A DNA stretch of 64,000 bases from positions 37,572,001 through 37,636,000 of the forward strand of contig OX485804.1 in NCBI GenBank assembly GCA_950295325.1, read 5' to 3'. This DNA is from Polytrichum commune (taxonomy: Eukaryota; Streptophyta; Polytrichopsida; Polytrichales; Polytrichaceae). This document shows positions 1 through 31,039 of this stretch, one piece after another. The notes under the pieces were generated by a model, which saw only the letters and a program-made list of their open reading frames with translations, searched no databases and was not told where the DNA came from. The position numbers and the translations under genes are program-made. The first letter of the stretch is position 1, and the number at the start of each line of letters is the position of its first letter.

Positions 1-1
1 G

Positions 2-1967: not shown

Positions 1968-2421
1968 ATTCAGCAGATTCATTTATTAGTCTCATATATA
2001 TGTTCTTTTTCATAAACGTGTATGACACACGTCACTCTATGTATTTTCACAATTTAGTGAATACGTATATATAAATATATATTATTTGTTCGCTATGTTA
2101 AATTTATGAATCACTTGTACTTGTCCTTCACTTGTGTTGATCCGTGAACATGTGTCCTTTTAGTTCTATTCAATGAAGTCTTCTATTTCCTCCAAAACTC
2201 GGTCACAGATAAATTTATTCCATGTCAAGCCCATTTTGCACGGTTATGGGTACTGAATTCCACGGTCATAAGACTATAATATTCGAATATTATGAGGAAT
2301 ATACGTTTTCCAAAATAACTTTTCTATTTTTGGACAAAAGAATTACTAAAAATAATTCCTCTCCGCTCAAAATTCAGAAAATGTACGCTCTGCGCTCTAC
2401 GCTCATGCCCTAGCAACGCTC

Positions 2422-2809
2422 CCCTCAAAGACAACAACTCACAAACAAAGACATATATCTCACATACATTGATTTTTGCAAAGCATTCGTATCAATAGAC
2501 CACATCGGATTCATAGCTTTCATGGAAGACCTGGGATACCCCCAAGATGTCATAAAATTGATAGAAACATATAAAAGATGTCAAAAATCAACCTAAACAA
2601 CAACACCCAGTTTTTTGAAAAACCACCCGGATACCAAAATATTTATGCGCGGAACTCAAAGATATCCTTATTGCAATAAAAACCATCCAAACCACCCAAA
2701 CAAACACATGCATATTTACAAATAGACTTAACAACGCATCCCTTATAAACAATTGTACATGACACCCATTCACACAACAACATCACCTTGACAAACTACT
2801 AATAGCAAC
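2422..2809 (+). pseudogene. LINE A fragment 1: reverse transcriptase motif A and start of RNase H
   Basis: On the plus strand, 2427-2600 reads a degenerate RT palm with YIDFCKAFVSIDH, the motif A aspartate block of LINE reverse transcriptases. It matches YIDFKSAFGSLDH of LINE B. Further on, 2648-2809 reads a decayed RNase H start (AELKDILIAIKTI, then IFTNRLN) with one stop. The frame continues after the LINE B insertion at 11134. The 5' part is missing. This is the oldest layer of the LINE nest. Confidence 0.65.
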
Positions 2810-2823
2810 TATAATAAACCAAA

Positions 2824-4522
2824 AGAAGAAGAAGAAAGAAGAAACTTTGATCCCCAAAGGGGACCGACGTGAATGAAGTGTCTGTTCGTTCCACCCCTAG
2901 TCCTATGTCCACGGGACATAGGAATAGAAGTAAAGAACTACTTCCCCCTTTCGAGAGTAGACACTATAGTCACAAGTAACCAATAACAAATAGAAACCGG
3001 TACCAAATAGAAGCCAGTAACAAATAAAAATAGTACAAATAAGGTTTAATTAATATAGGGTTTGTTTTGTGCAGGGTTTAGATGTCAGACCATGGTCTCA
3101 TTGTTGTGTGGAGAGGGTGTTTTTCATAATACAACTTTTGAGTCATCTAGGGGGGGTCTTGTATTTGTGGTAGAGGTTGGTGATTTTCTAGTCTTCTTTT
3201 GTGGAGGAGGATGGACATGGCGTATTGTATTGCAATGGTATTGATGTTTTTAAAGGTATTTTGGATGGATGGCATAGGTAGTTTAAATTTGTCTTCAAGT
3301 AGTTTCATTGATGGAATGTGTGTTGCGGCCACGGGTAGGTCACTTAGTGCATTTTAAAAACGACGTGCGGCATAATATAGAGAGGGTTAAAATCATTTGA
3401 AATAAAAATTATAAAGGAATTCCAAATAATGAAGGGCCCATTAAATGTAGACAATCCCATTATAAGTAAGTTAGATGGACATAAAATGTGGGCCATTATT
3501 TTTTTGTAAAATTAATATAGGGGCTGAAGATAAGGATCCTAGAAGGTATGTTTAGTATGTTTGCTATGGTCTCCTATGTGTTTTCTTCATAACTTTGTTT
3601 GCAATGATATTACTGTTTGCACCTTTCTTTGTTTCCATGGTTTCCCTTAACACTCGTCAATGTGTTAGGAAGTAGATTAGCTTTTATTACTTAAAAGGAA
3701 TATAGAGTACAAAAAGTTACAGTGACTTGGACAAAATAAGTAATGGAAGGGTGCAAACAAATGGGCCATTTTTGAAATTTAAGTAATTATAGGGGGGCTT
3801 TAATTCAGCCCTTGAAGGTAAATAGCCCCAAAACAAAAAAAACCCAGCCGCACGTGGTGCACAAAAATGCCTTAGAGTGACCTACCCGTGGTTGCGGCTT
3901 TGGCACCTGCTGTAATAACAATGAGCGGATCTATTTTCCAGCCTAGAGCAGCAATGTTTTCTATCAGTGGCTTGTACTTGTTAGCTTTAGCTTCTAGTGT
4001 TTATGGTGAAAATCTATCATTACAATACGTGAATTCAATGAATTGTATGGTAAGAGTTTGGTCTATATTTGGGGGAGGTTCATTTTGATATGGTAACCCT
4101 TTAACGCAAAGAATGTCAGGTCAAAATCCGTGAGTTACAATGGCATCTTTGGGTTCCACATGTGCAGGGTAAGAGCCAATTAGGGACGGTGTTTGCTTGG
4201 GGGGTGTCATTAAAGGTACCAGCGTTCATGAGAGTGTAGCATCGGGATTTTTCGGAAGAGATTAGTAATTTTCTGATTTCCCATACTGCTTTGTTATGTC
4301 TTTTGACGTGTAGTGAGTGTATATGTTGTTGCCTACATGTGAGTAGTACATGTAGCCATGTATCAGGTTCGTATGAATTACAAATAGGACATGTAATGGT
4401 GGGGAATCTTTGTCTACCAAAGAAGGTTTGTTTTATGGCTTGTTTCATGTAAGTTCTGGTGCGAAATTTGATAAGGCATGATTTTTGCTTGTCCGTAATA
4501 GTAGGGTTATTCCAAAATTCAT
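2824..4522 (-). mobile_element. LINE C: 5'-truncated LINE 3' end with 14-bp TSD
   Basis: The minus strand encodes only the C-terminal region of the LINE ORF. It starts at NEFWNNPTITDKQK and includes the Cys/His block CPICNSYEPDTWLHVLLTC and the CTCGTQRCHCNS block (4116-4522). It continues to IPSMK...SILLHKRRLENHQ (3150-3321). A 3' untranslated region with CACTATAGTG-like words follows, ending in a (TTC)n tail seen as GAAGAAGAAG at 2824-2845. The perfect 14-bp TSD TATAATAAACCAAA lies at 2810-2823 and 4523-4536. The copy is interrupted at 3330-3890 by a hAT-like element. Several stops and frame breaks make it non-functional. Confidence 0.85.
3330..3890. mobile_element. hAT-like non-autonomous element (MITE), 561 bp, 8-bp TSD
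   Basis: The left end reads CACGGGTAGGTCACTTAG. The right end, reverse-complemented, reads CACGGGTAGGTCACTCTAAG, and the similarity extends imperfectly inward for about 45 bp. Flanks are a perfect 8-bp duplication GTTGCGGC at 3322-3329 and 3891-3898. Removing the insert and one TSD restores the LINE C reading frame across the junction (AGAKAATHIPSMK), which aligns with AGARATTHIPSMK in LINE D. An 8-bp TSD is characteristic of the hAT superfamily. There is no transposase inside, so mobility must have been supplied in trans. Confidence 0.85.
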
Positions 4523-4795
4523 TATAATAAACCAAATCTATTGGATAGATAGATTGATAGATAGAAACTCCGGTCCCTATTTAAAGGGGCCAACGTGAAT
4601 GAAGTGTCCGTTCGTATTGTCAAATGACCCGATGCCCACCAGACAAGGGGAAATTTGGACAATACTACTCTCCCCTTCCGGGGATGGACACTATAGTAAC
4701 CGTAAAACAAAATAAAGGTAACCCTCCTTAGTTGTTTAGCATGTAGTTGCGTCAATGTTATAGTATAAGTTGTAATTTGTTGTGTTTGGTGGACG

Positions 4796-5040
4796 CCAAG
4801 TCATGTTTCCTTGGTTGATTGAGGGAGGATGTTTAACTACATGTAGACGGTCTGGGTTCGATTCCCGTTGAGTCCGTATGAGCGTTTAGTGTGTTATACA
4901 TGACTTGGTGCTGCTAGTGATTTAAAGGCAGGAAAATTGTACCAACCAGCCGGTTCCTACCCATCTTCCTGAGCTATTGGAGTTTATATTGTTCAATAAA
5001 TAAAGGACTACTTTATGATCCTTCTCTTATTCTTGTTATT
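4796..5040 (+). other. tRNA-like block (candidate SINE head) inside the LINE B 3' untranslated region
   Basis: GGTTCGATTCCC at about 4856 is a perfect RNA polymerase III B-box, preceded about 40 bp upstream by an A-box-like TTGGTTGATTGAGG. LINE B carries roughly 200 bp more than LINE D between the ORF end and the shared ACTTGGCG word, so this block looks inserted. I found no clear TSD. The anticodon stem is poor, so it is not a convincing tRNA gene. The word CCAAGTCATG near its start recurs inverted at about 4905. Confidence 0.4.
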
Positions 5041-5067
5041 CTTGTTTGTTTGTTTATTCATTTATTA

Positions 5068-6003
5068 TTATGTTGGTATTGCTTGGTTATTTTCAATTCG
5101 TCTTTTATGTAGAAGGATTGAACTAGCATATTGTATGACAATGGTGTTTATTTCTTTGAATGAATGGTTTATAGAATTTTGAGATAGTTTAAATGTTTGT
5201 TCAAGTTGTTTCATTGACGGGGTGCATGTGGTTCCTCTAGCTCCAGCCGAGATGACTATAAGTGAGTCTACTTTCCAGCCTTGTTGAGTGATGTCATTAA
5301 TTAGTGGTTGATATTTTTGAATTTTATTGTCAATTGTATCTTGCGGGAATCTGTCGTTTGTGTATGTGAATTCAATAAATTGTACTGTGAGGTTGTCTGT
5401 TGGGTGTGGTGGTGGGGTGCTTTGGTGTGGGAGTTCTTTGATACATAGGAGGTCGGGTTTAAATCGTGCGTTGCAGTGACATCTTTGTTGTTCACATGTA
5501 CATGGTAGGAGCCATGTGGGGACTGTATTCTCTTGTGGGTTGTTGTCGAATGTCCCTGCATTCATGAGGATGTAGCATCTTGATTTTTGCGATGATAGGA
5601 TTAGTTTTCTTAGTTCCCATACTGTTTTGTTATGTTTTTTGGTTCTTAGGGCATGTATATGGTGTTGATTGCATTTTAACAGTACATGTAGCCATGTATC
5701 TGCATCAGAGGAGTTACAGATTGGGCATGTGATAGATGGGAATCTTTCTATGCCAAAAAATAGTTGTTTTCTGGCGTTGCCCATATATTGTCCAGTTCGG
5801 AATTTTAGTATGCATGTTTTTTGTGAGTCTGATATTATAGGGTTAGACCATAAATTATTAGATATTTCATTATCAATGTCAGAGTTCATTGTCCATTTGC
5901 TAATGTTAGGGAATTGTTCTGACATGGTTTTTAGATTGTTAACTCGGTCGTGTTTAGTTAGGTATGTTTCGAAGCATCTAACAGGGCCTTTGTCAGGTCG
6001 CAT
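5068..6003 (-). pseudogene. LINE B C-terminal Cys/His-rich domain
   Basis: An open stretch of 311 codons (start codon not meaningful) begins RPDKGPVR. It contains CPICNSSDADTWLHVLLKC with a following H-x-x-H, a zinc-ribbon-like arrangement also present in LINEs A, C and D. A second cluster, CTCEQQRCHCN, follows. The tail IQYASSILLHKRRIEN is the most conserved C terminus among the copies. Its role is unknown; template RNA or DNA binding is an inference from the Cys/His pattern. It is one frame off the upstream RNase H segment, so a frameshift separates them. Confidence 0.7.
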
Positions 6004-6005
6004 GT

Positions 6006-6500
6006 TTAGTCCAGGCCAGGTGTCATTTTGGAAGTAGTATGGTGTGGTGTGTGCAAATTCGTATGATTTGGCAACGAATCTGTATTTTTTTTGGCGCCTT
6101 GTTTTGCTAATTGGTATGCTTGCTCATTTCCATCAATGTTTGTGTGTGCTTTTACCTTATATATCGTAGTGGGTTGCGTTCGGCTTTTTAGCATTTCTAC
6201 TATAGATGTTAATATAATTTTGTCAGCAGGGTTGTTATGGTGGGTAGGGTGTTTTATTTGTGTGTTAAGTATATATAGACAATTGAGGCAGTCTGTGAAT
6301 ATGTGTGCTGGTTCATTTGTGTATTTGGTAGTAATTAATCTGAGTGTTTTGTGTATGGCCATTAAGCTCGGCCCTAAAGCTGGTTTGTAGGCCAGACAGT
6401 TTTTCTGATATACGCATTTCTGCTTTTGTTGGGTTGTAAATTCCATAGCCAACTTTTTCTTTCTTCCAATGTCTGTCATTTGCTTGTATGGGTGGGACAA
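6006..6500 (-). pseudogene. LINE B RNase H domain
   Basis: The reading includes IFTDCLNCLYIL, with the conserved RNase H aspartate, and KVKAHTNIDGNEQAYQLAK, the C-terminal RNase H block normally reading H...GNE.AD.LAK. The terminal aspartate of that motif is a tyrosine here, so catalysis would probably be lost even without the frameshifts. RNase H encoded downstream of RT is typical of several plant LINE groups. LINE A keeps GNEISSTLVDKEAQ at the same place. Confidence 0.65.
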
Positions 6501-8890
6501 ACGATCTGTCTGTATAGTAGCTGTATTGTGATGGGAATTTTAATATCGTGTTTTTTTGAAGTTTGGTAATGGTGGTGTGTTTGTGGTTGATATGGGGTGG
6601 GTAGAGTAATTTATTTCATTTAGCGTTTTTGTTTACTGGAGCATTGCGAGGTATGAGTGGGCCTTTTGTATGTGGTATTGTGTTATTTGTAGATTTACGA
6701 TTGTTGTTTTAATTGTCTCTATTTGGTTGGGTGTGTCAATGTTGTGGTTTTGGTGGTGGATATAGAAGATGTGTATTGCTAATGGTTCTATCCGAGGTTT
6801 GTTTATGTTTTGGGGGGTTGTTGGTTCGTCATATGTAATGGTGTTGGCACTGAAATAAGCTAACACATGTGTGTCCGGGAATAGTCCGGTGTGTGGTGAG
6901 TAGTTTTAGTACCAATTAATGTCTAGTGTGATGTTGTTTGGGTCATTTTTGGCTGCTAGTCTTGCCCAGTGTATTGCTTGTTGGGTTGTTTTTTCATTAT
7001 GTGGATGGGCATACCTAATTTCATTCAATTTATATTGGAATGCAGTGCCTAGTGATCCGAAGACTTTGTCTCTTGCAAATGGGGAATAAAATTTAGTAAT
7101 ATGTGTAGAACATGTTACTGATGAGGAGAAATATGAGTATGTGATGTTGAATGTTTTGGTGATGGAATCAAGGAGATTTTCAGGGAGAGTGTGTTGTGAT
7201 GCTTTTAGTGGGTATTTTTTCGGGTTTTTAGAGTTATATCTTTGGTAGAGCCATACTACTTCTGTTTCAAATGATTGTGGGGGAGGTACTAGACCGTGTG
7301 TGTTATATTTGTTTTTGTTGTATTGTTGCCATAGCCATTTTAGTCTTGTAGTTGGAATGGCAATGAGGTGTCTTCCGGTGTCTTCATATATATATGTGTT
7401 AATTCATTTTGTGTTTGTATAGTATTTTCAACAGTGACAATGTCTTTTTATGGGTTGCATTCTATTACTGATATTTGAATGTATGGTATTATCGTAGGTG
7501 GTGGTATAAATCTTGGATTTTTGGCTTGTATAGGGGCTAGGTGTGTTTGTACAATGTTTTTATAATAGTTGTGTTGATATCTTGTGTAGTATTCTTTTAG
7601 CAGTTTGATATTGTGTTCGATTACTAGGGGTTGGTTTAGTGGGAAGAGTTCGCATTGTGGCAGCTATTTGTTATATGTGGTGTTGTTTTGGAGTGACCAT
7701 TGGCATAGGTATGTGTTAAATTTTTTGGTTATTTTATACTTATATTTGGTTTCGTTTGATTTGTGGTTCAATATAATGTGGATGGGAAATCTGAGTGGGT
7801 TATTTTTTATGTTGGGGGGTGGATTGGGTTGTTGGGGTTGTTGTGGTAGTGGTGGGTGTAAGGGGTTTTCTTGCACTCTGGGTGTTAGTTCTCTATTTTC
7901 TAATATATATCTTGCTTTGAGTGTGCGGGCTTGTGGGTGTCTGGTGCATGAATTTGGACAATTTTGGTTGCAACTTTGTTGACAAAAAAATTGTTCCGCT
8001 ATACGTAGTGCAGTTTTTTCGAGTTTTGTCGGTGTTTTATAATATATTTGGAAGTCTTTTGGTGACATTAAGTTTGTGCATTGGGGAGGAAGATGTGTTT
8101 TAGTTTTTGTATGTTGTGATTTAGGAGTTTATGGAGTAGTTTTAGGGATAAGTCGGGGTTTAGTTGTGGTAGTTCGGTTGTGGCTTGTGTTCTCCATTCA
8201 TGTTCTAGTTCTGTTGTGTGGAGTTGAAAGTTTGCTTCTATGCTTTTGAGGTGACCTCCTCCTTCTTTTTTCATTAGAAATAATGTTCGTGTTGTATGTG
8301 ATCTTATACAGTTTTGGTATTTGATTCTTTGTATGTCCTCTGCGTCACCGTGTTTGGCTAGTATATGTTGTATGAGCCCTTTATATATTATTCCTAATCT
8401 TCCGGGGTCATTTAGTGCGTTTCTAAGTTGTTCACTAATACATCTTAGGTGGGCATTTTTTAATGAGAATGCTTCTAGTCCAAATAGGTCATGTGGTAGT
8501 TGGGTTATTACATTTGCTATACATTTGGGTAGACCACAGATTATTTTTTGGATTCCAATTATTTATTTGTCTAATTTTTTGATGGTTGGTAATGAGTATG
8601 GGACTGCGTTGAAGCTATAGGCTATAACAGCTCTGATGATGGTAACCACCATGCTTACTTTTTGTTTGATTGTAGCTGGGCATTTTATTAGTTCTTTACA
8701 TTGGTTTATTATTTTGGCCAACGTGATGTATGTTTGGAGCTTCCATTTTAATGAGGGTACTAGTTGTATGCCTAAATAGACATAGGGTTAGTTTTGGTGT
8801 AAGATAGGTAGTGGTTGGTGCCTGTAGTTGATGTTTTGGGCTAGGATTTTGGCTTTGAATGTTCCTGGTTTTATTTTTGATTTATTTGGG
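6501..8890 (-). pseudogene. LINE B RT thumb/linker region, broken
   Basis: Minus-strand reading frames, interrupted by stops, run between the RT and RNase H domains. They include a Pro/Asn-rich stretch at 7664-8068 with a Cys cluster (CQQSCNQNCPNSC), and a block at about 7000-7280 (SYFSSSVTCSTHITKFYSPFA) that recurs in the LINE fragment at 33716-35080. No separate gene is present. Confidence 0.6.
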
Positions 8891-9669
8891 CATCCTGTGA
8901 TGGCACATTTTGGCACTCCTAAATCCATTCCGGCCCAATCACAGTATTTGTCTAATTTGCTTAGTTGTGTTTGTATTGATTGAAGATTGCTTGTGATAGC
9001 AGCCAGATCGTCTGCGTCTGCTGCCGAGCTGATTGTTAGTTTGGACGTACCAAATGTGTATCCATGTTTTCCTCTTTGTAGCCACCTTAGTAGAGGTTCT
9101 AGGAATAGTAGAAAGAGCTATGGGCTGAGTGTGTGGCCTTGTATTGTGCCTCTTTGTATTAGTATAGGTTTTGTTTTTCCGAAGTGTTCACCGGTGAATA
9201 TGGTATTGGAGTTTGAATAAATGTTTCCTATTAGGGTCACCGCATCTTCTGGGTATCCTAAGTCTTTTGTTATTGCTAACAGCCTTGCGTGATCCAGAGA
9301 ACCGAAGGCACTTTTGAAGTCAATATATAATAGGTATATATCTTGGTTTGTAAATCTTGCATCTTCTAGTGCTGCTATGAGGAGTTGGAGTTGTCTGGAC
9401 GTGCTTCTTTTTGCTCTAAATCCTTCTTGATTGTCGTGTAGGATTTGGTGTTTTTCCCCGTATGCTGATAATATGAATGTTAGGGTACTTGTACAGAATT
9501 TGTATATTGTGTTTGCAAGTGCAATGGGTCTATGGTTTGATAATTTTGAGGGGTCTCCTTTCTTATATAAGAGTATGGTTAAGCTTATTTTCCATGATGT
9601 TGAAATTTGTTTTTGTTTGTGACAGTGGAAAAAGAATAGGAAGAGTAGTTTGTGGAAGCTTTCGGACAT
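8890..9669 (-). pseudogene. LINE B reverse transcriptase
   Basis: On the minus strand the fingers read SLTILLYKKGDPSKLSNHRPIAL. Palm motif A reads YIDFKSAFGSLDH, followed by RGTIQGHTLSP (motif B). After an in-frame stop, SSAADADDLAAI gives the catalytic double aspartate (motif C), at about 8990-9035. These are the diagnostic motifs of non-LTR reverse transcriptases. QEGFRAKRSTSRQ between fingers and palm is also typical. The stop after LSP means this copy cannot make the full enzyme. Confidence 0.85.
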
Positions 9670-10353
9670 ATTCTTAATGATTATATTGGGAATTTTATCG
9701 GGGCCTGGTATTATGTTGTTTGCTAGGTTTTTAACGCAAATGTCGTATGTTTCTCTGTCAAAGTATTCATGTAGTGGAGTTTGTGGGATTCATCTCTTGT
9801 CGATGACAAATCCATCTAGGTCATGCCAGGAGTATTGTCTTACATCGCATGTACAGTATGGTGGGTGTTCCGGTTGGTGATAACATGTTGGTACTGTGGG
9901 TCTGTTGCTAATGGATTGTTGTTTGTGAATTTCGTTGGCTATGTCTACCGGGTCTGTAAGTATGTTGTTGTGTTCATCTGTAATGCAGTCTTGGTTTTTG
10001 AAGACTCTTTTGTTAATTTTCTTTGGATTTTTTTATATAATTGTCTGTATTTGGTTATGATTTTTTTTATGCATTCTTGGATGTATTTTGTGGTAATTTT
10101 TCGGGAGTATATATTTGCAGTTTTGGCTCTTTGGGCTAGTGTTTTTATCCATTCTTGTTGGCTAGGTTCTTTATTTGGGGGGTGGAATAACGACTTGAGT
10201 ATGATTACGTAGTTCTTCTATTATTGGGTATGTTGACCAGTTTGGTGAGTTCTTTATGCGGTAGATTGCTTTCCTAATTAAATGGTAGGTGGAGAGATGT
10301 TTTTTCCATTTTGTTTGTAGTTTTCTTGGTAGAAAGCCTCTTTGTTGTGATGT

Positions 10354-18159: not shown

Positions 18160-18993
18160 CTTATGTCATCCCCCCAAGGTAGTAATTTCCATAATAACTT
18201 ACCAATTTCACAAGTACAACACTGACTGCATTTGGAATGTGGACGAGAGTGGTGCTCAAACCGGAAAGAATGGAGGAGTTAGGGCATTGGCATCAAAAGA
18301 ACACATCAAGTACATTGACAAGTGTTTGATGAACGCCAACATCTTTCCATGTTTTCTTGCATCAATGCCAATGGAGATTGCATCCCAAATTTTTACATAT
18401 TCAAGGGCAAACAATGTCAGGGGCACTACATCAAAGGATGTGAGACTGGAGCATGCACAGTGATGCAACCAAGTGCATGAATAATGACATTTTTGTTTGA
18501 TACGTGTTTGGACCACTTCATTGTATGTGTTAAAAAAAAAGTGGAAACATGTCTTAAAGTTTGGACAACCAATACCTTTTGGTTATGAATGGTCATGCAA
18601 GTCATGTCATGGTGATGTAGTGAACAAGGCAAAGGCAATTGGCCTTGATGTCATCACCTTGCCTTCTCACTCATGACATGCCTTACAACCTCTTGATATT
18701 TATTGCTTCAAGAACTTCAAGTCTACTTTTCGTTCATGTTGTGATTCTTGGACATCGACTCATAGAGGAGTTTGAGCCAATAAGAAAGATCTTGCAAATG
18801 CGATGGCAAGAAGGTTGAAGAATGCATTCACATCCGATAACATAAATGAAGGTTTTTAGGCTATGGGAATGTGGCCATTGGACAAAGATGCAATGGTCAA
18901 CAAGATGGCATCTTTGGAGGTATTTGTACATAATGAGAGGGAAGTTGATGTGCGGATTGAGGAGGTGGAGGACATCACTATATGAAATAATGA
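18160..18993 (+). pseudogene. Pogo-like (Tc1/mariner, DDE_1) transposase relic, left half
   Basis: IWNVDESGAQTGKNGG at about 18229-18277 corresponds to the first catalytic aspartate block of pogo/CENP-B-type transposases (usually NVDETG). After a frameshift, PNFYIFKGK and CETGA at about 18387-18450 follow, then LVMNGHASHV and LPSHS.HALQPLDIYCFKNFKSTFR at about 18580-18735. These are the second aspartate block and the LQPLD motif. Several stops and frameshifts are present. It continues at 31040 after the 12-kb transposon, which inserted with a 10-bp TSD. Confidence 0.75.
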
Positions 18994-19003
18994 AGTGAAT
19001 TAC

Positions 19004-19060
19004 CAGGGTTGCTAAAGTATGAGCAGGGAGCAATGAGCGTTGAGCGTTGAGCATTGAGAA
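19004..19060 (+). repeat. Left terminal inverted repeat of element 2
   Basis: It begins CAGGGTTGCTAAAG and continues with subterminal direct repeats of the type GAGC(A/G)TT. Element 1 shows the related end GTTGCTAGGGCATGAGC. Such clustered short repeats are commonly transposase binding sites; this role is inferred. Confidence 0.75.
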
Positions 19061-20462
19061 ATATCAAAAAAATGTGTGAAAAAAAATATTTTTTTACTAT
19101 AAGTTTCATATGTGAGTGGTTGAAAAGAAAAACCTATGGCTATAAATGCTCTCAAAGACGATGAATGGAGATGAATGGAGTTGGATGAATTGTTTGTAGT
19201 TATTTTTATGGATGAAAATGAATTTGGATGATTGTTGAAATGAAACTAAAAAAATCAATTATTTAGGATCAATTACCAAGTACTTTAGATCCAAGGTTTA
19301 AGGTGTTTTTTTGGAAACTAAGGATCTGTACATGGTGTTACGAAACAATTTGAGTGAATACACCATTTTCAATTAAATTTTATAATTACTTTTAAGCAAT
19401 ACTGAGATTCATCAAATTTATTTTTATGCTAACACAAAGTCAACGATTTTCTCATTATTAGTTGAGTCTAGGTGGACAAACAAACAACCCCTCTTAAAAA
19501 CCTTATCATTTACGAGTTTTAGTTACATGTTTCCATGTAAAAGAAATGACATGTTGTTAATTAAACAAAATTGATTCAATCTAGAAAAATTAATAAAATT
19601 TAATCTCTAAAATGAAGATGTCTTCTAAAGTGGATATCCTTTAAAATTAAAAATATGTTTACCGCCACCTCAAAGATCACAAAACTACACAATAACTCAA
19701 GAATAAATTGAGATGCAAGAATGTAGTGGCCCTTGTAGTCTCACTACATCACATTAAAAAATCAACAAACAATAAGAGTGTTTACAAAAAGATCAATTTG
19801 ATCCAATACCACACATGCTAGAAGAATGATCACTAGCTTCACTACTATCACTGTTCATAAGCCCTAGTGTCTCCACATTGGCTTCTAGATCTAAAAACTT
19901 CTTGACAACAACATTGTATGAACGTCGTTTGGTAACAAGAATGGGTGATGAAGCCTCTGCCATAACTTTCGCTTGAGTTTCGATATAACATGGCAAACTC
20001 TTGGGACTAGGAGAAGGCGAGAGCACAAAATGTTGGAGAGAGTTCCCTCTACAATATACATTGAATAAACAGTTAGAAACTTGGAATAAATTTTCAAGTC
20101 TTACACAATAAAATAAAACAAAGACATGAATAAACAACAACCAACTTACTTACAACAACGTCTCTTTCGAGGCCTTGTGGAAGGCCTCACAATGTCCTCA
20201 TCATCTGAACCATTGTCCTCTACTAGTAGAGGACACTTGGTTTGGGGGTTGGCAATAGAAGTCGGAGGAGTATTCAAAGGTTCAAGAAGGGCTTTGAAAA
20301 TATCACTATCGCTCTCCAAGGCCAACAAATGACGTCCAATGTTGCGGGTTGCATGTATAGAGGGCCCTATTCATTGAATGCAAGACAATTAGTTCAAGCA
20401 AATATATTACATACAATGTATGAAAAAAAATGGATTAGGTAATGAGAACTAATGAAAATTAC

Positions 20463-21278
20463 CTGTAGATGCAAAACAATCTAGTACCACATCGCCGGGT
20501 TTTGAAAATGCCTCAATCAATAGTTGTACAAATAATGGATCTTTCTCACGGGCACCTCTCCATGGAAGAACCCCATTCATTAGCTGAGTTTGTAGAGAGG
20601 TGAAATTGTGGAGTAGGTCAATTTCTTCAAGGTTGATGCTTGCATTGCTAAGTTGTTGGTTTACGTAGATAGAAAACTTAGACACTACAAATGTTTCCTC
20701 CCATTTTCTGCGTACAAAAAGAAAAATCCGAAAGCGTTGTGACTGTCAAGGATAAACAAGTATGTCAATTAGTATTTGAGAAGCAAAATGTTGGTACGAG
20801 TGGATTCAAACATCAATATACCAAAAACATAATTTGGTAGATAGAAAAAACTTGCTATAGTTCTTATTTACAATTTTTTTTTGGGATGCATCAAAATTCA
20901 CAAATGAAAAAACTCAATAGAACTTACCCAACATTTAGATTTCTTGTAACTAGAAAGCTTCAACTCATTCACACCCATCCAGGAATCCAGTAGACGAAAG
21001 CCATATGTATCAGCACGCTCAAGTGTGAATTCCTTCACCTTTCCGTTTTCTGGGTGGAACAACAAAATTGCTCCATCATCATGAACATACTCTAAAGCAA
21101 ACTCAAAGATGGGTTCAATTATCTCTTCTTCATTCAACAAGTTCCAAACAGGAACATGAGAAGGTGATTCCGAGACATTGGGGACTGGTAGTCCGTCTGG
21201 GATATCAGCAACAATCAAGTCAAAACATGGACCAGAGATCACGTTGCCTCCAAGAGTTCGTACCCGCTCCCCTCCAAC
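20463..21278 (-). other. Methyltransferase catalytic region of the cargo gene
   Basis: Exon 20928-21278 encodes DLIVADIPDG followed by EEIIEPIFEFALEYVHDDGAILLFHP, a Rossmann-like segment. Exon 20463-20707 encodes WRGAREKDPLFVQLLIEAFSKPGD, the usual DNA-methylase segment preceding motif I, then VVLDCFASTG. The tyrosine of DPPY is replaced by aspartate, so this copy may not have been catalytically competent even before the frame breaks. Confidence 0.65.
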
Positions 21279-22900
21279 CTTGACAATAGAAAATGCACAT
21301 TTTTAGATTTAAGAATAACTTGCAATGCCATGTAACTTTATAACTTAATGTGAAATGAAAGAAAAACATTAGAATAAGACTATAGATGATAAATTTTATT
21401 TTTTTTGCAAAATTAAGCATTTCATCCCATGCTTGTGCATTTTTCCCAGTCTTCTCTTTGACACTAAGCATTGTAGAAATTGATGATGGTAGAATTAGAG
21501 CTTGAGGCTCAATACCATGTCTATTGGGCTGAATTGTTGACCTAGCAATATACTATGATGAATCAAATGCATTTGGAGGAATAGATAGAAGAGTTGGAGG
21601 ACAATGAGAGCGAGCTGTATCAATCACTTCAAAAGGAGTGGGAGACACAAGTGAAGGAGGAGGTGCAATAATAGATGCTGGCATGGACGAAGAAGGCGTG
21701 TCATCTTTTGTGGTAGTATTTGTCGCCATCTTCTTTATAAATTTTTTCTCCCTTGGCTTCCTCCCCTTCTTCACTGGTGCAACCTCTTCAATTTCCACCT
21801 CTTCCTTTAAAAACTCCTCTTGTGTGGTTGTTTTAGGATAGTCTTTAGCAACCTCTTTCTCAGGTCCCTCAAGTGCCAGGGCAAAACTCCTTGGACACTC
21901 TAGGTACCAAGGACAAGCTTGGAGTTCTTGGGCAGAAAACCCCCGTTGTTGAGTGAAGGTGAACATACATCCCGTCAAAGACGTGTCAAGCCAACCCATG
22001 AAAAGCTTGGGCATAAATTTTCTTTCAATTCCACCTTTTGGAATCAACTCTCGTTTGAAATATATGCAATCACATAGAAAATGTTTGATTATTGCAATGA
22101 CAAATATGCATATTCAATTATTCTATGGATTTGTAAAGCAAGTCAAATGTAAATAAATAAATATAATTGAACAAAAAGATATACCTGTAGAGTAGCCTCT
22201 TTGTTGCAACATTTGTACCCTCTTGATCTTTGAAAGCTTTAGACCTCGAATATGAAGAATATTTTTTGAACAACCACCAAAAAGCATGATCCCATAACAC
22301 AATGCGCCATGTCTCCACATAATTTCCAATTGTGTCTAACTCATAGTTGGCACTCCAATGGACCTCAATATTCTCAGACTTTATGATGCTCATGAATTCT
22401 GCTTTGGCTGCTTCTTCCAACTTCAAAGAACCCGAGATATATTAGAATGATTTTTTAGAAAGCAAAGCATATCATAAAACAAACACCCATACAATATTAT
22501 TCTCCACAGTTATATACATGTCGTCCACAATGGCAATTTCATTTTTTTATAATTTCCAATTGCATTTTTTGGAGTTTAAAGGCGAATAATATACAAATGG
22601 AAAGGTATTACAAAATGTAAGTATTAAATATGTTGATGAAAAAATTGTTGATAATATACCTCAGCCCAAAAATCAGCTTTAGAGAGCCATGTCTCTAAGG
22701 TCAATGTGTTGAAACCAGGGGGTGGAAATCGAAAGCCATCTCTAGAAGTTTCACTGGAATTCCACCACCGAAGAAAACGAACCTTGTGGTGTGGTTGGAC
22801 CACACATGTAGGTATCCTTTGAAGTTTCTCCAATGACATCTCGGGTTTCTCATTGGTGCTGTAATGCAAGTTAATCTGAAAATTTGAAGGTGGACATTAT

Positions 22901-23000
22901 AGTCAAAACTAAAGACAAAACCAAAACCAAAACCAAAACCAAAACCAAAGTCAAAATCAAAATCAAAATCAAAATCAAAATCAAAACCAAAACAAAAAAT
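22901..23000. repeat. Short tandem repeat AACCAA/ATCAAA in a cargo-gene intron
   Basis: Five units of CAAAAC-type hexamer are followed by five TCAAAA-type units, lying inside the intron between exons 22660-22875 and 23044-23238. It looks like a hexanucleotide minisatellite with two sequence variants. Confidence 0.8.
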
Positions 23001-23648
23001 AAACATAGAAATTATTCATTTGCAAGTAAATAAAATTACATACCTCTTCTAGAAATCCAACGCCATTATTTGGATTTGCAACAGCTGATTGCTTATCAAA
23101 CTCTGTTCGGAAACCTTTAGTAGCTGTAGTGGCAGCTTGGGTCATGACATCATGAACTCCCTTTGAAGTGCGGTCTTTTGGTTGTGTTTTTTCATAATAC
23201 GCTTGTACTGCTGCTTCTGAAATAGTAGCAATCTCTTGCTGCAGACAAAAATAAAATTAGTAAATCAATGTAAAATGAATTGTACAAATGACAACAATGA
23301 AATGAATTCTTTTTGCAAGCACATGACTTACCCGGTGAAGGAATTGTATGAAAACTTTTGACGTCAATGGATACCAAGCACCTGGTAGTTTTCTATTTTC
23401 GCATTTCTTGTAATCATCATCGTTTAGAAGATCCTTGAACTCTTCTAATTTTAAGTTGCCATAGTTACTCATCCTATGTAATTGCTGAGCCAAGTTGCTC
23501 TTAACATGAGAATGCTCAGTAGACCTATAAAACCAATGAAAATAGAATACAAGATAAATAAATTGATAAACATAGAAAATAACAACTAATCAAAATAAAA
23601 AAAATAGTGAAGAATGAAAAATAATGTGGACCAGATTTTGAAACTCAC

Positions 23649-24232
23649 CAATTGATGTCGTTCATAGCCTCCAATAGCATGCATGTGCGACCTTCAGATA
23701 CCAAAAGCATACAATCAACTTGGAAATGCCATTTGCGATCATAACGATGCATCTTATGAATGTAGGCATACCAAGCTGCCAATCTATGGTTACCATCCCA
23801 TACGAAGAACATGTGGTTAGACAAATGCGAAAGAAAAGGCTGAGACTTCAACCAAGATTCAAATTCATCATTTTCTTGTATCCAACATTCATCCCATGTC
23901 TCCACGATCTCAGGAGTCACCAACTTGCAAACTCCCTTGTCATTTGTTGTTGATACATAAAGTATACAATCACCTGGTCGATATCCACGAGCAAAGTCTG
24001 CCTCCAATCGTTTCACTTGACTTTGAAGAAGGGGACGCACCAATGGAAGGCCAATCATCCTGCATAAAGGAATATGAAAATGAGATGAAGGCCCTCCACC
24101 ATTAAAAAACATGCTGTTGATGATGACATTGGAGTTGAATTTTTGACCAATTCGTACATCGTGCTCCACCTCTTCTATTGTTTTCCCTTCAAAAGTGGGA
24201 TTATCACTTTGATTTTGAATGGTGGTAGAAGT
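23649..24232 (-). other. ParB-like exon of the cargo gene
   Basis: This 584-nt exon starts TSTTIQNQSDNP and ends at a GTGAGT donor in phase 2. It holds the best-preserved domain. RPLLQSQVKRLEADFARGY fits the first ParB helix/strand unit, and FFVWDGNHRLAAWYAY fits the DG-x-HR-x-x-A signature of ParB/sulfiredoxin-fold proteins. The exon is completely open. Confidence 0.65.
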
Positions 24233-24328
24233 CTATAATGAACAGTACATTAAAAACAAAGTGTAGTCAATGAAATGAAAAGTAAAACTTGTAGCATATG
24301 AATAACACAGAGAACAATTGAAATATGA

Positions 24329-24826
24329 GGCCTCGTCAACGAGGCTATATTCTCCAGCACAAACCAGCAAAACCAGTAAAAACTAGCAAAACCAACGTAA
24401 ACCAGTAAAATCAACATAAACTAGCATCAACTAGCATCAACCAGCATAAACCAACAAAAACCAACACAAACCAACACACCCTAAACCCTAAACCAACACA
24501 AACCAAAAAAAAAAATGAGACAAGATGCATTTTGAACCTATACCATTCCAATAAAACAGAAAATGATCCAAAATTGACGCCTCGTCAACAAGCCCAAGTT
24601 TCAGAATGTAAACATGAAACCCCAAAAAAAAATTTAAAAATGTCCCTTCAAACTTTTGTTATTCCAATAAAACCCCAAAGAATTGAAATTTCAGGCCTCG
24701 TCAACGAGGCCATGCTCTTCAACACAAAGCAACAACAAAGATAAAATGAGAAAAGATGCATTTTGAACTTATACCATTCCAATGAAACAGAAAATGACCC
24801 AAAATTGACGCCTTGTCAACGAGCCT
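24329..24826. repeat. Four spaced copies of a GCCTCGTCAACGAGGC palindrome
   Basis: Perfect or near-perfect copies lie at 24329-24345 and 24694-24711 (GGCCTCGTCAACGAGGCC). Degenerate copies are at 24577-24594 and 24808-24826. Surrounding sequence (CCAATAAAACAGAAAATGA, AAATTGACGCC, AAGTTTCAGA) is also duplicated, so this is a diverged tandem array with alternating full and degenerate arms. It lies in intron 1 of the ParB-methyltransferase gene. A protein-binding role is conceivable but unproven. Confidence 0.7.
24357..24512. repeat. AAACCAGC/AAACCAAC degenerate tandem repeat with two telomere-type units
   Basis: A run of 9- to 11-bp units such as CCAGCAAAA, CTAGCATCAA and CCAACACAAA, including CCCTAAACCCTAAACC at about 24478. 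It is intronic. The telomere-like words are too few to imply telomere origin. Confidence 0.7.
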
Positions 24827-26383
24827 AAGTTTCAGAGTGTAAGCATGAAATCCTAAAAAATTAAAAAAATGTGCCCTTAAATTTTTGCTATTCCAATGAA
24901 ACAACTGACATTTGAGGCCTGACATTTGACATTCAAAGCAGCAATAAACCTCAATGTTAGTTTCGGTGGCTCCATTCTCCAAATCATGTGCGCCCTCGAT
25001 GTATTCGGGAACAACCTCCCCACCATCGCCACGCTCATGTCCACCCTCCCCATCATCGTCGCGTTCCTATCTATCCTTCCCCATTACAGCGTTTCCCTAG
25101 CATACCTTAGCATACCCTTGCAAACCCTAGCATACCATCTAAAGTTGGGCTTCGGTGTCTAAAAATAAAAAATAAAAAATATGGTAGATTTGGGCCAAAA
25201 GAATCTTTTAGATATATCCTATCATTTTAAATATTATAAAGCCATTTTTTCCCAAGCATACATTCTAACCTCACAAACCACCTTGATTTTTTTCAAATTT
25301 TTTGGATTCAATGCGGATTTTACAAAAATTGGCAAAGTCCTCTGAAAATAATCGGACAAGATTTCGCCCAAAAATCTTATGATTTTGAAGATTTCTCTCA
25401 CGATTCTAAGATGTTTTTTTTCATTTTTGGGCCGTAAAACATTCACAACTTCTCCGTTTTTTGCATGCAATATACCGTTGGAATCGTCTTCTCGACCTCC
25501 ACGACATGGGATTTGGTGTCAAATTTACCTCCAAGAAGAAAAAAAACATGTACACATAAATTTAAATCGTTCCAATCTAATGGTTATAGTTTTGACAACA
25601 AATACATGAACTTACCACTTCTGTGCTTGTGGAAGATATGGCATTCGTAGCTGGACTAGATTCGCCTCCGTCTTCTTCAATATCATTCATACAATCGACC
25701 TCGGCAATATCCATTGCTTCATTGTTTTGTATCGAGTTCTCCCCACATTAAAAAAATCCAACTTCATGATTCTCATAGGACAAGGTCCGAATAATGCTAC
25801 TAATCTCATCACCATTGGCCTTCTGCAAGCGTCTAACCATCCTTAATTTTTCTAACTGTTTCTTACTAGAAAATAGAAGACCAGCCTTACATCTCTTCCT
25901 ATGAAAACCCTTTGGCATCCCTGCAACTGGAAACACTACATGAAAAATAATTCTACTATTTGGTTACAACTATGCAATCTCTTCAATAAATAACGCTCAT
26001 TTAGTGTAATGAATGTATCATCATCCGATTATTTATGGCTTCTTAGAAATGAATTATATCTATTTACATACATATAAACGGTCATTTGTAAAAGAGACAT
26101 ACGGCTTCTCGTCTAGAAATGATATTTACTTACCTTAATATAAACGTTCATTTATAAAGGAGGCGCTCCCAAAAATTCATAATTCAAAACATTCTATAAT
26201 AGTCACTAAAATCATATGAAATCTTTGTATGTCAGATGTATCAATTCAAATTTTGAATCACTACGAGCTAACACCACGCAACGGAAATATTTGGTTGTCA
26301 CTACTTTATAGTCATTTCCTTTCTATTACAACAAACTTTCATATAACCCTTTCATACAATGACATTGAACGTGACTTTGTAGG

Positions 26384-29300
26384 TTGTACGCACATGCAAG
26401 TATGGATATGGCATTTGTTCGCGGTGACGCCTCTAGTATTCCAATTTTTTTTCCCTGCAGTGATAATGGTATGGCATGGGTATCTACATTGATTCTCAAT
26501 ATAAGATTCAATTTGGATTTGTCGTCCTTATGGGTGGAGGAGGAGTTTTTTTATTCAGAAGGAGTTCAAGTCGTATCTACAGTCATGTTGCTAAAGATCG
26601 AGACTGACTCAGGATGCGGTTGGAAGCTTCCTCCAAGCAAGTACCATGTTTTGGTACTCCAAGAATTACTAGGTGAATATCGACAAAAATTCTCACACCT
26701 GGGTCTGCAACCTCCACTGTTCAGATGCATTGGGGAACTCGTGTGAAGGTAGAGTCTCCAAGTCATAGTCATATTGATCTTACTGAGTCTTCCGATGATG
26801 ATGTAGTTGTTGTCAATGATGTGAATCGCAAGCTATCTCCTATACATGAGAAATGTGAAGACATTTTTCTAAGTGTACATAACATTGACCATCATAGCAC
26901 ATTGAATCCTTCTGTTCATAAAAAAACATCTAAATTTGTGAGCATCTTGGAATGCCTTAGAGATATGCAAAGTCGTCCACATGCACGGAATGAATTGAAA
27001 TTTATAAACCTCAATACAATCCGTTGTGACGCAGTCCGTCACCTTCCTCAATCATTTAATGGAGATGTGTTTTTTGAGTTACCTCCTCTTCCTTCTTCGG
27101 CATCCCCTTCTAGAAGTGGAGCCAACTCGATTTCATCGTCTTCTGTAGGTCGACAGCTAGAAGGCATGGATCGTAAGTTTGATAGCCACAATTGGACACA
27201 CACACACACCACAAACATTGCAAATGATTTCGGCCTAAAGTTCCGCTATTCATTGTGTGTGGGCCATTTGGTTTGCAAGAACACAACTTGCCCTAGACTA
27301 CGGCGAAGTGGCAACAAAAATGAGACAGAATGGGAGGGATCGTCACCTGTTGTCTTTGATGTGGGACAACAATCTCCTGTGAAGTCTAATCTCGTATGTC
27401 GGATTTGTAAAGAAGTCCCATCCTGCATAGCTCCATGCCCTTGCCGCATGTATAGGGTCTTGAACTCAATAGGTCTTCCAAGAGCTTTTATCCATGTTGG
27501 TATTCACGATCATCCAGTGGGTAAAGGGATTTGTCGTGATTATGTTCATCGAGCAACATCTTTGATTAGTCGAGAGGTATCAAAGACACCAACTGCAACA
27601 AATTCCGCCATTCGACTTGCTGCTAGCAAGGAATTTCTTGCATTTGAATTGTTTGGAGAGGAAGGACTACACAACGACCGAAAGCCCCTCTGCGGAGAGG
27701 CCCTTGAGGCTGTTATGGGCAAATTCCGGATACTCAGTTCACCTACTATTCGAAATACCATCTCTAGTTTCCGTCACAATACAAACAGGGGACCCATTGA
27801 CAACATTATCTCGTTGAAAATGAAAAGTACATATTCCTTTATTCAAGATAGTGTGTTCCCAGGCCAAGGTAAGGATAAAGTTTACCTTTTCAAGATGTCT
27901 GAGGAAGGACCGGGAAGCGGGGTGGATTTGGTAAGGCGAATGTAATCTGGTGGAGACTTGCAGAACTCTTGGTGCATGTTCGATCATGTTAAGAGGGTGA
28001 AAGGATGGACGTCAATGGCTGCCTATGTCTATGACCCTGAGTTTTGTCAAGTCCAAACTATTTGTGTTTGCGACATGATGAGTGAGGATGCTCAGTCACA
28101 ACAACAAATGTGGAGATCCCTCAATTCCGTCATGGCGCGCCATGGGATTTCATCTCCAAACTTCAAGGGTTTCATGGCTGACAATGCAATGGCCAATTGG
28201 CATGCTGTTCGTGTGGTGTATGGAAGTGGCAACAAGCAAGAGCCAATGCAAGATCGAGAGCGCTCTTGTCTACTTCATTGGACAACTTCGCTAAATAGAC
28301 ATACAGAGAAACTCATTCGACTAGAGTTCCAAGAAACTCACAAGAGGCTTTGCAAACAATACAAGGATGCAAAATCAATGGCAGAAGCAGAAAAAAGATA
28401 CCTTGGAATCAAGGGTTGGTGGCTTTCTTCAAGAGCTGCATCAGAGGATTCTTTGCGAGAACTAGATGACTGGCTGGGTTTTTGGCACTTTTGATACCGG
28501 CAGTGGGGTGGAGTTTTAGAATTGGTAAGTTATATACCTACTTGAATTTGAATTTTCCTTCTTTATTGCTCAACTGTTATTCATGGACAAGTTGCTTTAG
28601 TGTCCCTAACGTATGTGGTTTTGTTTAATTGTTTTCCTTCACATCTATAATATTTACACAAGTTTGGGTTCAACATCCACTAGTATTATTATGGAAACAT
28701 GATTTTGGAAACCAATGAAACCTTACTTTATCATTCAAAATCATTCTTATTGTTGCAGAACCTCAATTTAGAAGAGCTAGCCGAGATGCCTTCATGCAAT
28801 TTGGCAGAGACAGTTCACAACAAGTGGTTGCAAATGTCTGGGAAGAGGGGAACCTGCTTGTACGTCGCCACAACCGATGACATGATGCGGGCTATTCAAC
28901 AATCGACTAATTATTGGGCATACCTCCAAGGGTATGCATCTGGCACTGGTCCCCCTTGGATGAACTTCACCTTCGAGCTGCAAGACGAACTAGAAATCCA
29001 ACAAAATTTGCTGAGGTTGTCGCCAAACTTCCAGATGCTCACCTATTAGCCACGCGGGTTCCCCACTTGGAAGGTGAAGAAATATTTGGCTCCTCAAAGC
29101 GCAAACTGAATTTGCCTCCTGGATCAGACGGCGACTCTCATCGCCACGATACAGTGAATTTTTTTGCACCTAGAGTTCAGACTCGGTCAGTCAAAGCACG
29201 CACAGAAGGAGATGCATCGACAACAATACCAACACAAGAAGGTGAACCAAGCACATTATGTCGACACGCTACCAAAATACTTGAAGCAAACTGCAACCCT

Positions 29301-30167
29301 TCACTATGGCACATTGCTAGGTGTAAAAAAGAAGGGAAGACTTGTCACGGAGTTCAAATCGGGATGAAGAAGAGATGCGGGGCCAAGATAAACAAGTCAA
29401 GCAAGAGTGGAACGGTAGCACCTACCTACAACGGCCGCATGACAGAATATGGAACCAAGCCCATTATCAACTTTGATTTCTGGTTTTGTGCAGATGACCT
29501 ATTGCGTTGTGTTGGAGGCTCTAAGGTTAAGTGGGTTCACGATTGGCCTCCTCTTCCAAATGTCTGGCCTATTGCATGTGGGACACATCTCATAAAATCA
29601 GAGATTTTTTTTCTACATGAAGCAGGATTTCAATTGCAAACTGAAGATGTAGGCGAACCAACACTCCACCTCTTCAATGAAGACGATACAAGAAAAAATG
29701 TGTCATTCCTACACTCAAAGCAACTAGATAGTGATGTCCAACCATCTGACGGTGATATGCACCCCACAAAGCGATTGGGAAGAACCATTCGGCGTAATCC
29801 TAATGCGCCCACAGTTGACCACCGCAACAAATGGGAGACAACATGGAACTTGAACGCAGTCGTTGATTCTGTTGTCGTTATTCCATACCCTGGCTATGGT
29901 AGAGTGTTAACTTTGATCTCTGGTATCTTTCCCAACCAAAAGGTCTATCGAATCACAATTTCGGATTTTCCTGCTTGTACTTGCGAAGACTTTATCACCA
30001 TGAGTACGGCTGCACTTGGTAGTAGGAAATCTTGGGTAAACTGCAAGCATTTATATTATGTCTTTAGGTTTATTTGCAAGGCAAACTTAGAGAACGACAA
30101 ATATATACATGCACCAAGTCTGAGTTTTGATGAAGTGAAGTTACTTCTTGTAGGTAGCAATCTATAA
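26384..30167 (+). pseudogene. SWIM zinc-finger transposase-like gene of element 2, decayed
   Basis: The N-terminal part is at about 26402-26746 (KYHVLVLQELLGEYRQKF), one frame off the main ORF at 26725-27945 and joined by a probable frameshift near 26740. A Cys-rich region (GHLVCKNTTCPRL, then CRICKEV) and a GIHDH motif lie at 27240-27520. The ORF is stopped by TAA at 27943 and continues as 27946-28524 (FDHVKRVKGWTSMAAYVYD, FMADNAMANWHAV) with a TGA at 28492. An intron at 28525-28758 follows, then exon 28759 onward with a frameshift near 28960. The last stretch to 30167 ends with a SWIM-type CTC...NCKHLYYV. The first gene of the window keeps arginine where the TGA stands. The aspartates of the 27.9-28.2 kb region are candidates for a DDE core, unproven. 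Confidence 0.7.
28525..28758 (+). other. Intron of the element 2 transposase
   Basis: The donor is TTG|GTAAGT and the acceptor TTGCAG|AAC, at the same codon position as the intron at 326-503. Exons on both sides read ...WGGVLEL and NLNLEELAEMPSCN. Confidence 0.75.
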
Positions 30168-30674
30168 GATTTTTTGTATTTGTCTTGTAGTAGATAGTGA
30201 AACCATTTATGTGCAGAGGTGGATATAGAATTTTCAATTGGAATAGATGCCACATACCTTACATTCTAATTGCTTTATGCTGGAAATTGTTTATGGCACT
30301 TCAAGGACCACTCAAATCATTTGTAAAATTGTAAACATGAAATAAAGATATAAGAAAAGGCTGAATTTAGCCTCACAATATTGTAGGATGAAATGTTACT
30401 ATGCTACAAATGAATCTTGAGAGAGCTCCTCAGTTCTAAGAAATACTTAACCACATCCAAACAACATTGTAAAATTGTTTGTTACATATCTCCAAATGAA
30501 CTTTCAAGGTATTCTTTGGTTCCAAAACACATTAAACCAACCTCTGGGATAGTTAACAATGTTTTTGCAGTCAATAAAGCAAATATTTTTTGTAAATGAA
30601 TTTTTTAAATAAGCAAAAAAAATCATTCATTTTTTCAAGACATCTTTAGCAATGTCCAAAGAAAGTTCTTTTTG

Positions 30675-30738
30675 GATGAATGGTGAATGAATGATGAATG
30701 GTGAATGAATGATGAATGAATGATATGGATGAATTTCA
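30675..30738. repeat. GAATGATGAATGGT short tandem repeat
   Basis: Repeated TGAATGGTGAATGAATGA words in the 3' flank of the transposase gene inside element 2. No further function is visible. Confidence 0.75.
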
Positions 30739-30971
30739 TTTGTTTATCAAATCTCTCGTGGTGAAATCTTCTTGTTGTGGGAGATGTTGGTTTTTCAATA
30801 ATTTTGATTTATACAACAATTGATTGAAAATTTTATTATTTTTAATATAATTTTGTAATTTTTGTAATTTTGTAATTTTTGACATTACTATATTTAGGCT
30901 TGAAAATATTCTTTATTACTTTAACGTGTCTATTTTAAATATAAATCATTGCACTAAGCGCTCAAAACTAG

Positions 30972-31029
30972 TTGCTCATTGCTCAACGCTCAATGCTCAT
31001 TGCTCCCCGCTCACACTCTAGCACCGTTG
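30972..31029 (-). repeat. Right terminal inverted repeat of element 2
   Basis: On the plus strand it ends TGCTCCCCGCTCACACTCTAGCACCGTTG, immediately before TSD 31030-31039. The subterminal words GCTCATTGCTCAACGCTCAA mirror those at the left end. Confidence 0.75.
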
Positions 31030-31039
31030 AGTGAATTAC

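Follow-up and report, generated by a model that had tools for sequence, protein, structure and literature searches.

Why would a moss DNA transposon carry a gene related to the DNA methyltransferases of bacteria and phages, and what might the transposon do with it? The question is raised by a 12,026-bp element at positions 19004-31029 of a 64,000-nt stretch of the Polytrichum commune genome, here called the window; loci elsewhere in this 408-Mb genome are given by contig labels (C1, C2, C4 and C7). The original prediction, made from the letters of the window, described the element as a transposon with a ParB-methyltransferase gene as its cargo. We find that the element belongs, as a decayed copy, to a large family of DNA transposons with terminal inverted repeats (TIRs) and 10-bp target-site duplications (TSDs). 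It can be said with near certainty, at the least, that typical members of this family combine a transposase-like gene, a divergent gene descended from methyltransferases and a non-coding array of palindromes beside that second gene. The second gene, referred to below as the accessory gene, is under purifying selection, and the palindromes beside it differ between subfamilies, an arrangement from which we develop the proposal that the accessory protein may recognise the DNA of its own element.

The element and its family

The window element is bounded by a perfect TSD and by inverted-repeat arms of 52 nt (19010-19061 and 30972-31023) that are 88% complementary, and its ends read CAGGGTTGCTAAAGTATGAGC... 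and CAACGGTGCTAGAGTGTGAGC.... Joined across the element, the flanks match Pfam DDE_1 (pogo, PF03184) over cut-off with an expectation value (E) of 8e-5, so the insertion splits a pogo relic. Inside, two genes diverge, one on the minus strand (~24232-20146) and a transposase-like one on the plus strand (~26680-30167). The original prediction of a single element with a perfect TSD, matching inverted ends, a split pogo relic and two divergent genes is confirmed. The boundary features are as follows.

18300..19003, plus strand: left half of the pogo-type DDE_1 relic, which resumes from 31040 (Pfam on joined flanks)
18994..19003, no strand: left TSD AGTGAATTAC, 10/10 identical to 31030-31039
19004..19061, plus strand: left TIR, CAGGGTTGCTAAAGTATGAGCAGGGAGC..., with 52-nt arms and the same ends in the C1 copy and in a distant subfamily
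30972..31029, minus strand: right TIR, CAACGGTGCTAGAGTGTGAGCGGGGAGC... inward, pairing with the left arm
31030..31039, no strand: right TSD AGTGAATTAC, 10/10 identical to the left one

Ends, TSD and both genes occur together in three independent insertions from two subfamilies that are ~45% identical in protein. The closest copy (C1:67810989-67824039) is 97.4% identical to the window element and has its own perfect 10-bp TSD, CTTCCTGTGT; its methyltransferase-like frame is open, with no stops in the exons, and its transposase is broken. In the distant subfamily, similarity among near-identical transposase copies stops at one common point, GCTCACACGGTAG(C/T)GT(C/T)(G/A)TTG, the window counterpart of which is GCTCACACTCTAGCACCGTTG. 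A 17,796-bp element of this subfamily at C7:29552072-29569867 could be read to both ends (left CAGGAATGCTACGATGTGAGCGG, right CAATGACGCTACCGTGTGAGCGG), and it contains both genes and lies within a perfect 10-bp TSD, ACAGTGTCGG. The window copy itself has decayed: its methyltransferase-like gene contains an in-frame TAG (21553-21555) and has lost the splice acceptor ahead of exon 6, and its transposase is interrupted by a TAG (27943-27945).

The association of the two genes extends well beyond these insertions. In one subfamily (L010-type) an adjoining, divergent accessory gene lies within 30 kb in 57 of 76 transposase matches, where 1,000 random placements gave a mean of 0.44 and a maximum of 3. 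Pairs found with the window catalytic exon as query were divergent in 21 of 22 cases. All three transposase matches chosen blind to the accessory gene have one, which in one case was seen only through a catalytic exon 15.6 kb away, and a transposase accompanies two of the three accessory-gene matches chosen, the third having none within 8.5 kb. The recurrence of ends, TSD and both genes at other loci, which the original prediction had named as a check, is thus seen, and copies do not consistently lack the accessory gene, nor is it a single-copy gene away from the transposon. In rough first-look counts the N-terminal accessory exon had ~1,185-1,279 candidates, the catalytic exon ~1,026 and the transposase ~2,164-2,382, which puts the family roughly on the order of 1,000 copies or more. 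Nine elements from several divergent lineages, some covered in part, were examined more closely. The genome, with seven large contigs, also encodes SAM domains of the LEAFY type (SAM_LFY), indicative of a land plant.

Several further members were observed. The distant-subfamily element on C7 (L161, flank C7:29551000-29552071) is inserted in the transposase coding remains of another subfamily; family members therefore nest in one another. A third copy of the window family, C1:28232323-28262224, is ~30 kb long, probably due to other elements inserted in it, reads DIPY in its methyltransferase motif IV and contains three of the six GCCTCGTCAACGAGGC palindromes in the genome. For an element at C7:30.92 Mb inverted repeats were not found at both ends, and its methyltransferase end appears broken. 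Window positions 1-2425 hold the right part of a second, different member, with transposase exons at 2-331 and 528-1958 (47-63% identical) and a probable end near 2425 (CGCTCATGCCCTAGCAACGCTC); its methyltransferase-like gene lies directly left of the window at C2:37559634-37560173. Strand asymmetry is strong at window positions 4001-10000 (GC skew to 0.46, AT skew to -0.37), where no tandem array was detected.

The accessory gene

The splice model of the accessory gene is backed by exon-wise matches in distant elements and by the 97%-identical copy, in which the frame is open. It comprises the following features.

20146..24232, minus strand: methyltransferase-like accessory gene, splice model of ~970 codons, ending at 20146
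24232-23649, 23524-23332, 23238-23044, minus strand: exons 1-3, splice model
22875-22660, 22420-22185, 22063-21403, minus strand: exons 4-6, splice model
21278-20928, 20742-20463, 20366-20149, minus strand: exons 7-9, splice model
23648..24112, minus strand: N-terminal domain (the 'ParB' of the original prediction), motif FVWDGNHRLAAW, conserved across subfamilies
20925..21279, minus strand: catalytic exon with an N6_N4_Mtase-type domain, homologous to phage and bacterial N6_N4 methyltransferases
21209-21192, minus strand: motif IV, ADIPDG, within the catalytic exon
20463..20742, minus strand: exon that encodes motifs X and I (PWRGAREK ... VLDCFASTG)

Profile comparisons indicate that the C-terminal domain is a descendant of prokaryotic or phage N6/N4 DNA methyltransferases. 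Pfam N6_N4_Mtase matches the catalytic part of the near-identical copy, once spliced, over the gathering score (E 3.8e-7) and the window's own unspliced exon weakly (E 5e-4), and PDB matches of the domain include DpnA and CcrM. Profile comparison (hhalign) with phage ParB-methyltransferases gave E values of 4.8e-9 and 2.1e-9, against 0.1 for a reversed-profile control. Among phage proteins the methyltransferase domain is matched best by one annotated 'ParB-like partition protein', at 24% identity, and a related-locus search with either domain found no close prokaryotic or viral relatives.

Whether the domain could still act as an enzyme is a separate matter. The canonical catalytic motif IV, (D/N/S)PP(Y/F/W) or DPPY, is absent in the subfamilies read, in which E or D occupies the position of the base-stacking aromatic. 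The window family has DIPD, two further subfamilies have DIPE, and a single decayed copy reads DIPY. Motif I also varies by subfamily (LDCFASTG, LDCTAATG and VDVNAGVG) and is degenerate in two of three. The domain as a whole is strongly conserved, the stretches ADIP(E/D)xLPVP, HDDGAxLLFHP and WRGxREK included. Because the stacking aromatic of DPPY is gone, methyltransferase catalysis by the accessory protein appears doubtful.

The stretch FV(W)DGNHRL.AW in the N-terminal domain is reminiscent of ParB, but the domain gave no match to ParB or ParB_N by Pfam, PHROG, PDB or hhalign. All profile comparisons being negative, including one of 83 phage ParB-methyltransferases with a 14-member plant alignment, we rejected the ParB identity and treat the motif as a lead at motif level only. 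A single-sequence AlphaFold model of the N-terminal exon had a predicted local distance difference test (pLDDT) score of 35 and was not used.

The ratio of non-synonymous to synonymous substitution rates (dN/dS) between subfamily members was 0.06-0.12 in the N-terminal exon, and one catalytic pair gave 0.125; recent window-family copies show relaxed ratios of ~0.4 and above, as expected of decaying copies. Values near 0.1 mean that selection keeps the gene, which is therefore a standard accessory gene of the family and no incidental cargo. The original prediction was right that the transposon carries a gene of the methyltransferase family, but what it took for a single captured cargo is a conserved component of a family of some 1,000 or more copies. 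In a third subfamily (L070, L071; C4:30.50 Mb and C2:65.85 Mb) the basic-linker exon is fused with the catalytic exons in an open frame of >400 codons with the motif DIPENLP; intron content therefore differs among subfamilies.

Palindrome arrays

A non-coding tandem array of palindromes, with units of ~85-257 bp, adjoins the accessory gene in all nine elements, and in several of them further palindrome copies lie within the introns of that gene. The window element contains the following.

24285..24903, no strand: non-coding tandem array, period ~115, beside the methyltransferase-like gene
24330..24345, no strand: palindromic site GCCTCGTCAACGAGGC
24354-24512: 10-bp minisatellite inside the array
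24579..24594, no strand: decayed palindromic site, 2 mismatches
24695..24710, no strand: palindromic site GCCTCGTCAACGAGGC
24810..24825, no strand: decayed palindromic site, 2 mismatches

The window family's palindrome is GCCTCGTCAACGAGGC; the other arrays carry AATTAGTGTTTCGGGCCCGAAACACTAATT, GTTTCGGCACCGAAAC, CTGTCGGATCCGACAG, GGTTTCGGGACCGAAACC, CCTCGGATCCGAGG, GACCCTCTCGGAACCGAGAGGGTC and GAGGCCTCGGATCCGAGGCCTC, and GTGTTTCGGGCCCGAAACAC is the palindrome of another subfamily. Seven elements have the core TCGGNNCCGA in common, the two from the window family have TCGN4CGA, and the arms differ by subfamily. In three arrays a long perfect palindrome in the consensus unit beats all 300 shuffles. 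The single-unit shuffle test was not significant in the remaining arrays, where two central bases make the palindrome imperfect or it falls outside the consensus unit, and the palindrome claim therefore rests on recurrence and on genome counts.

These counts, with the reversed pattern as control, were 2,491 against 7 for CCTCGGNNCCGAGG, 477 against 20 for TTTCGGNNCCGAAA, 11,555 against 6,046 for TCGGNNCCGA and 6 against 0 for GCCTCGTNNACGAGGC, the last with all six inside three window-family copies; independent clusters are fewer than the raw counts, because tandem copies inflate them. All six genome copies of GCCTCGTCAACGAGGC belong to the window family. For 36 of the 50 TTTCGGNNCCGAAA sites listed on C1, a listed family gene is no more than 20 kb away, which holds for 3% of random points. 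Clusters are found between the two genes, for example at C1:2252879-2257759 (transposase at C1:2249100-2250812, ParB-like exon at C1:2258215). Between two subfamilies a palindrome stretch of 28 bp is kept at 96% while the rest of the ~128-bp units is unalignable, which suggests that the site is under constraint. The original prediction, which did not mention the arrays, had supposed that the enzyme might help the element to mark, hide or segregate its own DNA, and the subfamily-specific palindromes supply an unexpected physical correlate of that idea.

Two other sets of palindromes were seen. Near a contig end, C1:20134-21263 and C1:50710-53241 hold arrays of TCGGAGCCGA, a further subfamily-specific site, at a spacing of ~85 bp or multiples, adjoining a ParB-like exon (C1:49660-50202). 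The long palindromes GGGCGCTGTCCCGGGACAGCGCCC, TGGACTTCCATGGATGGAAGTCCA and GCCATGAGCTATGCGTAGCTCATGGC are repeated in comparable order, at a spacing of ~500 bp, in a number of distant elements (L049 1604, L032, L056, L057) and are probably a further inserted repeat.

The transposase-like gene

The plus-strand gene of the window element has three exons.

26680..28542, plus strand: N-terminal and core exon, with D and C-x2-H motifs and the TAG at 27943-27945
28783..28953, plus strand: short exon
28959..30167, plus strand: C-terminal exon, with a SWIM-like CxC-x20-CxH at ~29976-30050, read from sequence

Mutator-like elements (MULEs) have TSDs of 8-11 bp and TIRs, and accessory open reading frames (ORFs) are common among them (PMC6446971). 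The present family resembles them in its 10-bp TSD at three insertions, its TIRs and its accessory ORF, and has possible counterparts of their D and C-x2-H motifs and of the SWIM finger (CxC-x20-CxH), but differs in a transposase that Pfam does not recognise: there was no match to MULE (PF10551) at E<1 and none to SWIM, and the window element is not among the listed PF10551 matches of the genome. The D and CxxH residues align at the expected MULE positions with an hhalign probability of 0.2%, in shallow alignments, and hhalign against MULEs of the same genome was not significant. A PDB match of the transposase profile to bitiscetin covers a short stretch of this snake-venom lectin and was judged to be chance. 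Because TSD and ends fit while the transposase profiles fail, the family is best described, on these sequence features, as MULE-like and not as a MULE. Among the profiles that the original prediction had named for spliced models, N6_N4_Mtase passed its cut-off and ParB, SWIM and MULE did not. Its 'ParB-methyltransferase' accordingly stands as a methyltransferase by descent, with an altered motif IV and no profile support for ParB, and its 'SWIM transposase-like' gene keeps the signature without the profile.

Discussion

The organisation of this family suggests a mechanism in which the accessory protein would recognise the palindrome array of its own element and, bound there, might antagonise host silencing or otherwise license expression and transposition of the element. 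The methyltransferase fold would serve mainly for binding DNA and perhaps S-adenosylmethionine (SAM), a role proposed because motif IV reads DIPE or DIPD and not DPPY. Binding of the protein to its own array seems to us fairly probable, whereas anti-silencing as its main purpose is a tentative suggestion. Also tentative, if plausible, is the broader notion of a self-recognition system made from a phage-type methyltransferase scaffold without the canonical catalytic motif, in which protein and arrays diversify together between subfamilies. Taken whole, from recognition of the array to anti-silencing or licensing, the proposal has in our estimation a little under an even chance of being right.

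Several points weigh against it. The window copy is inactive. Similarity of the palindrome arms tracks that of the proteins weakly (Mantel P 0.02 over seven elements), a link that common descent would produce by itself. The transposase or host factors could be what binds the palindromes, or these could be promoter elements, and catalysis in an altered form may be possible, as the DIPY of one decayed copy suggests.

Since the arrays sit between two divergent promoters, they might be promoter or transposase-binding elements, with the methyltransferase-like protein as a transposition cofactor without an epigenetic role, and accessory genes with non-epigenetic roles are known from other MULE-like elements. 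Yet the arrays adjoin and enter the introns of the methyltransferase-like gene, away from the element ends, and the palindromes are subfamily-specific, which leaves this explanation somewhat unlikely. We also regard it as unlikely that the protein is a methyltransferase still working with an altered motif, modifying bases of the element (N6-methyladenine, 6mA; N4-methylcytosine, 4mC; or other) and so marking self or blocking cytosine methylation by the host at the palindromes, which contain CpG. Such activity would agree with the strong conservation of the whole domain, with its homology to DpnA and CcrM and with the bacterial-type 4mC methylation that operates in bdelloid rotifers (PMC8885841), but not with a stacking aromatic replaced by E or D in all subfamilies read or a motif I degenerate in two of three.

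A partition or extrachromosomal-maintenance system of the ParB/parS kind is called to mind by palindromes clustered near the gene, as parS sites are, and by the fact that the phage proteins closest to the methyltransferase domain are ParB-methyltransferase fusions. It is nevertheless very improbable, given an N-terminal domain that none of the four comparisons recognised as ParB, elements that are chromosomal and no ParA-type partner seen in the element. That the accessory gene is a passenger without function for the element could be argued from the broken window copy and from transposase candidates about twice as numerous as accessory-gene candidates; contradicted by dN/dS of ~0.1 and by a layout conserved across subfamilies, it is the explanation to which we attach almost no probability.

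If array recognition by the accessory protein is what this layout reflects, element-specific self-recognition, possibly with an anti-silencing effect, would have arisen independently a second time in plant transposons, outside the Arabidopsis system, with targets that the sequence itself shows. The many subfamilies of this genome, each having a palindrome of its own, form a natural set for following the co-change of protein and site, and the accessory gene is also a case of a phage-type methyltransferase fold kept by selection after a change in its catalytic motif. The observation behind the original prediction is confirmed and much larger than stated, and its interpretation is partly supported.

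Comparison with known systems

No description of such a family was found in the open-access literature, a coverage that leaves out most subscription journals and repeat databases. Like the present family, KDZ elements of fungi, which carry TET/JBP genes, are eukaryotic transposons with a gene for a DNA-modification enzyme; there the chemistry is oxidation, whereas here the fold is that of a methyltransferase, and we know of no palindrome arrays in KDZ elements. Phage ParB-methyltransferase fusions (for example NatCom_3357 XTK82159.1; Streptococcus phage Javan178 QBX24152.1) share with the plant protein a homologous N6_N4_Mtase domain and an N-terminal extension. Unlike them, the plant protein has no recognisable ParB_N and has a long extra middle region, and its gene has DIPE or DIPD for DPPY, introns and a eukaryotic transposon setting. 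The N4CMT of bdelloid rotifers is also a bacterial amino-methyltransferase taken up by a eukaryote, but according to the paper it sets 4mC as an active epigenetic mark in its host (PMC8885841), while the gene described here belongs to a transposon and has an altered catalytic motif.

The closest parallel in working is with the Mutator-like VANDAL elements of Arabidopsis. Their VANC proteins bind short motifs of 8-9 bases, arrayed in one orientation within non-coding tandem arrays of their own elements, and remove silencing, and the motifs turn over via tandem repeat formation (PMC5735166, PMC10398659). The palindromes of the present family are longer, at 14-30 bp, and its accessory protein is a methyltransferase relative, for which the descriptions of VANC in those papers offer no counterpart. 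As far as can be told, with VANC compared by description only, the likeness would be a resemblance of working and not one of membership, because the accessory protein is unrelated in kind to VANC. Both are plant TIR transposons with an accessory gene and with element-specific motif arrays in non-coding tandem repeats, and in both the layout is constant although the motif differs from one family to another.

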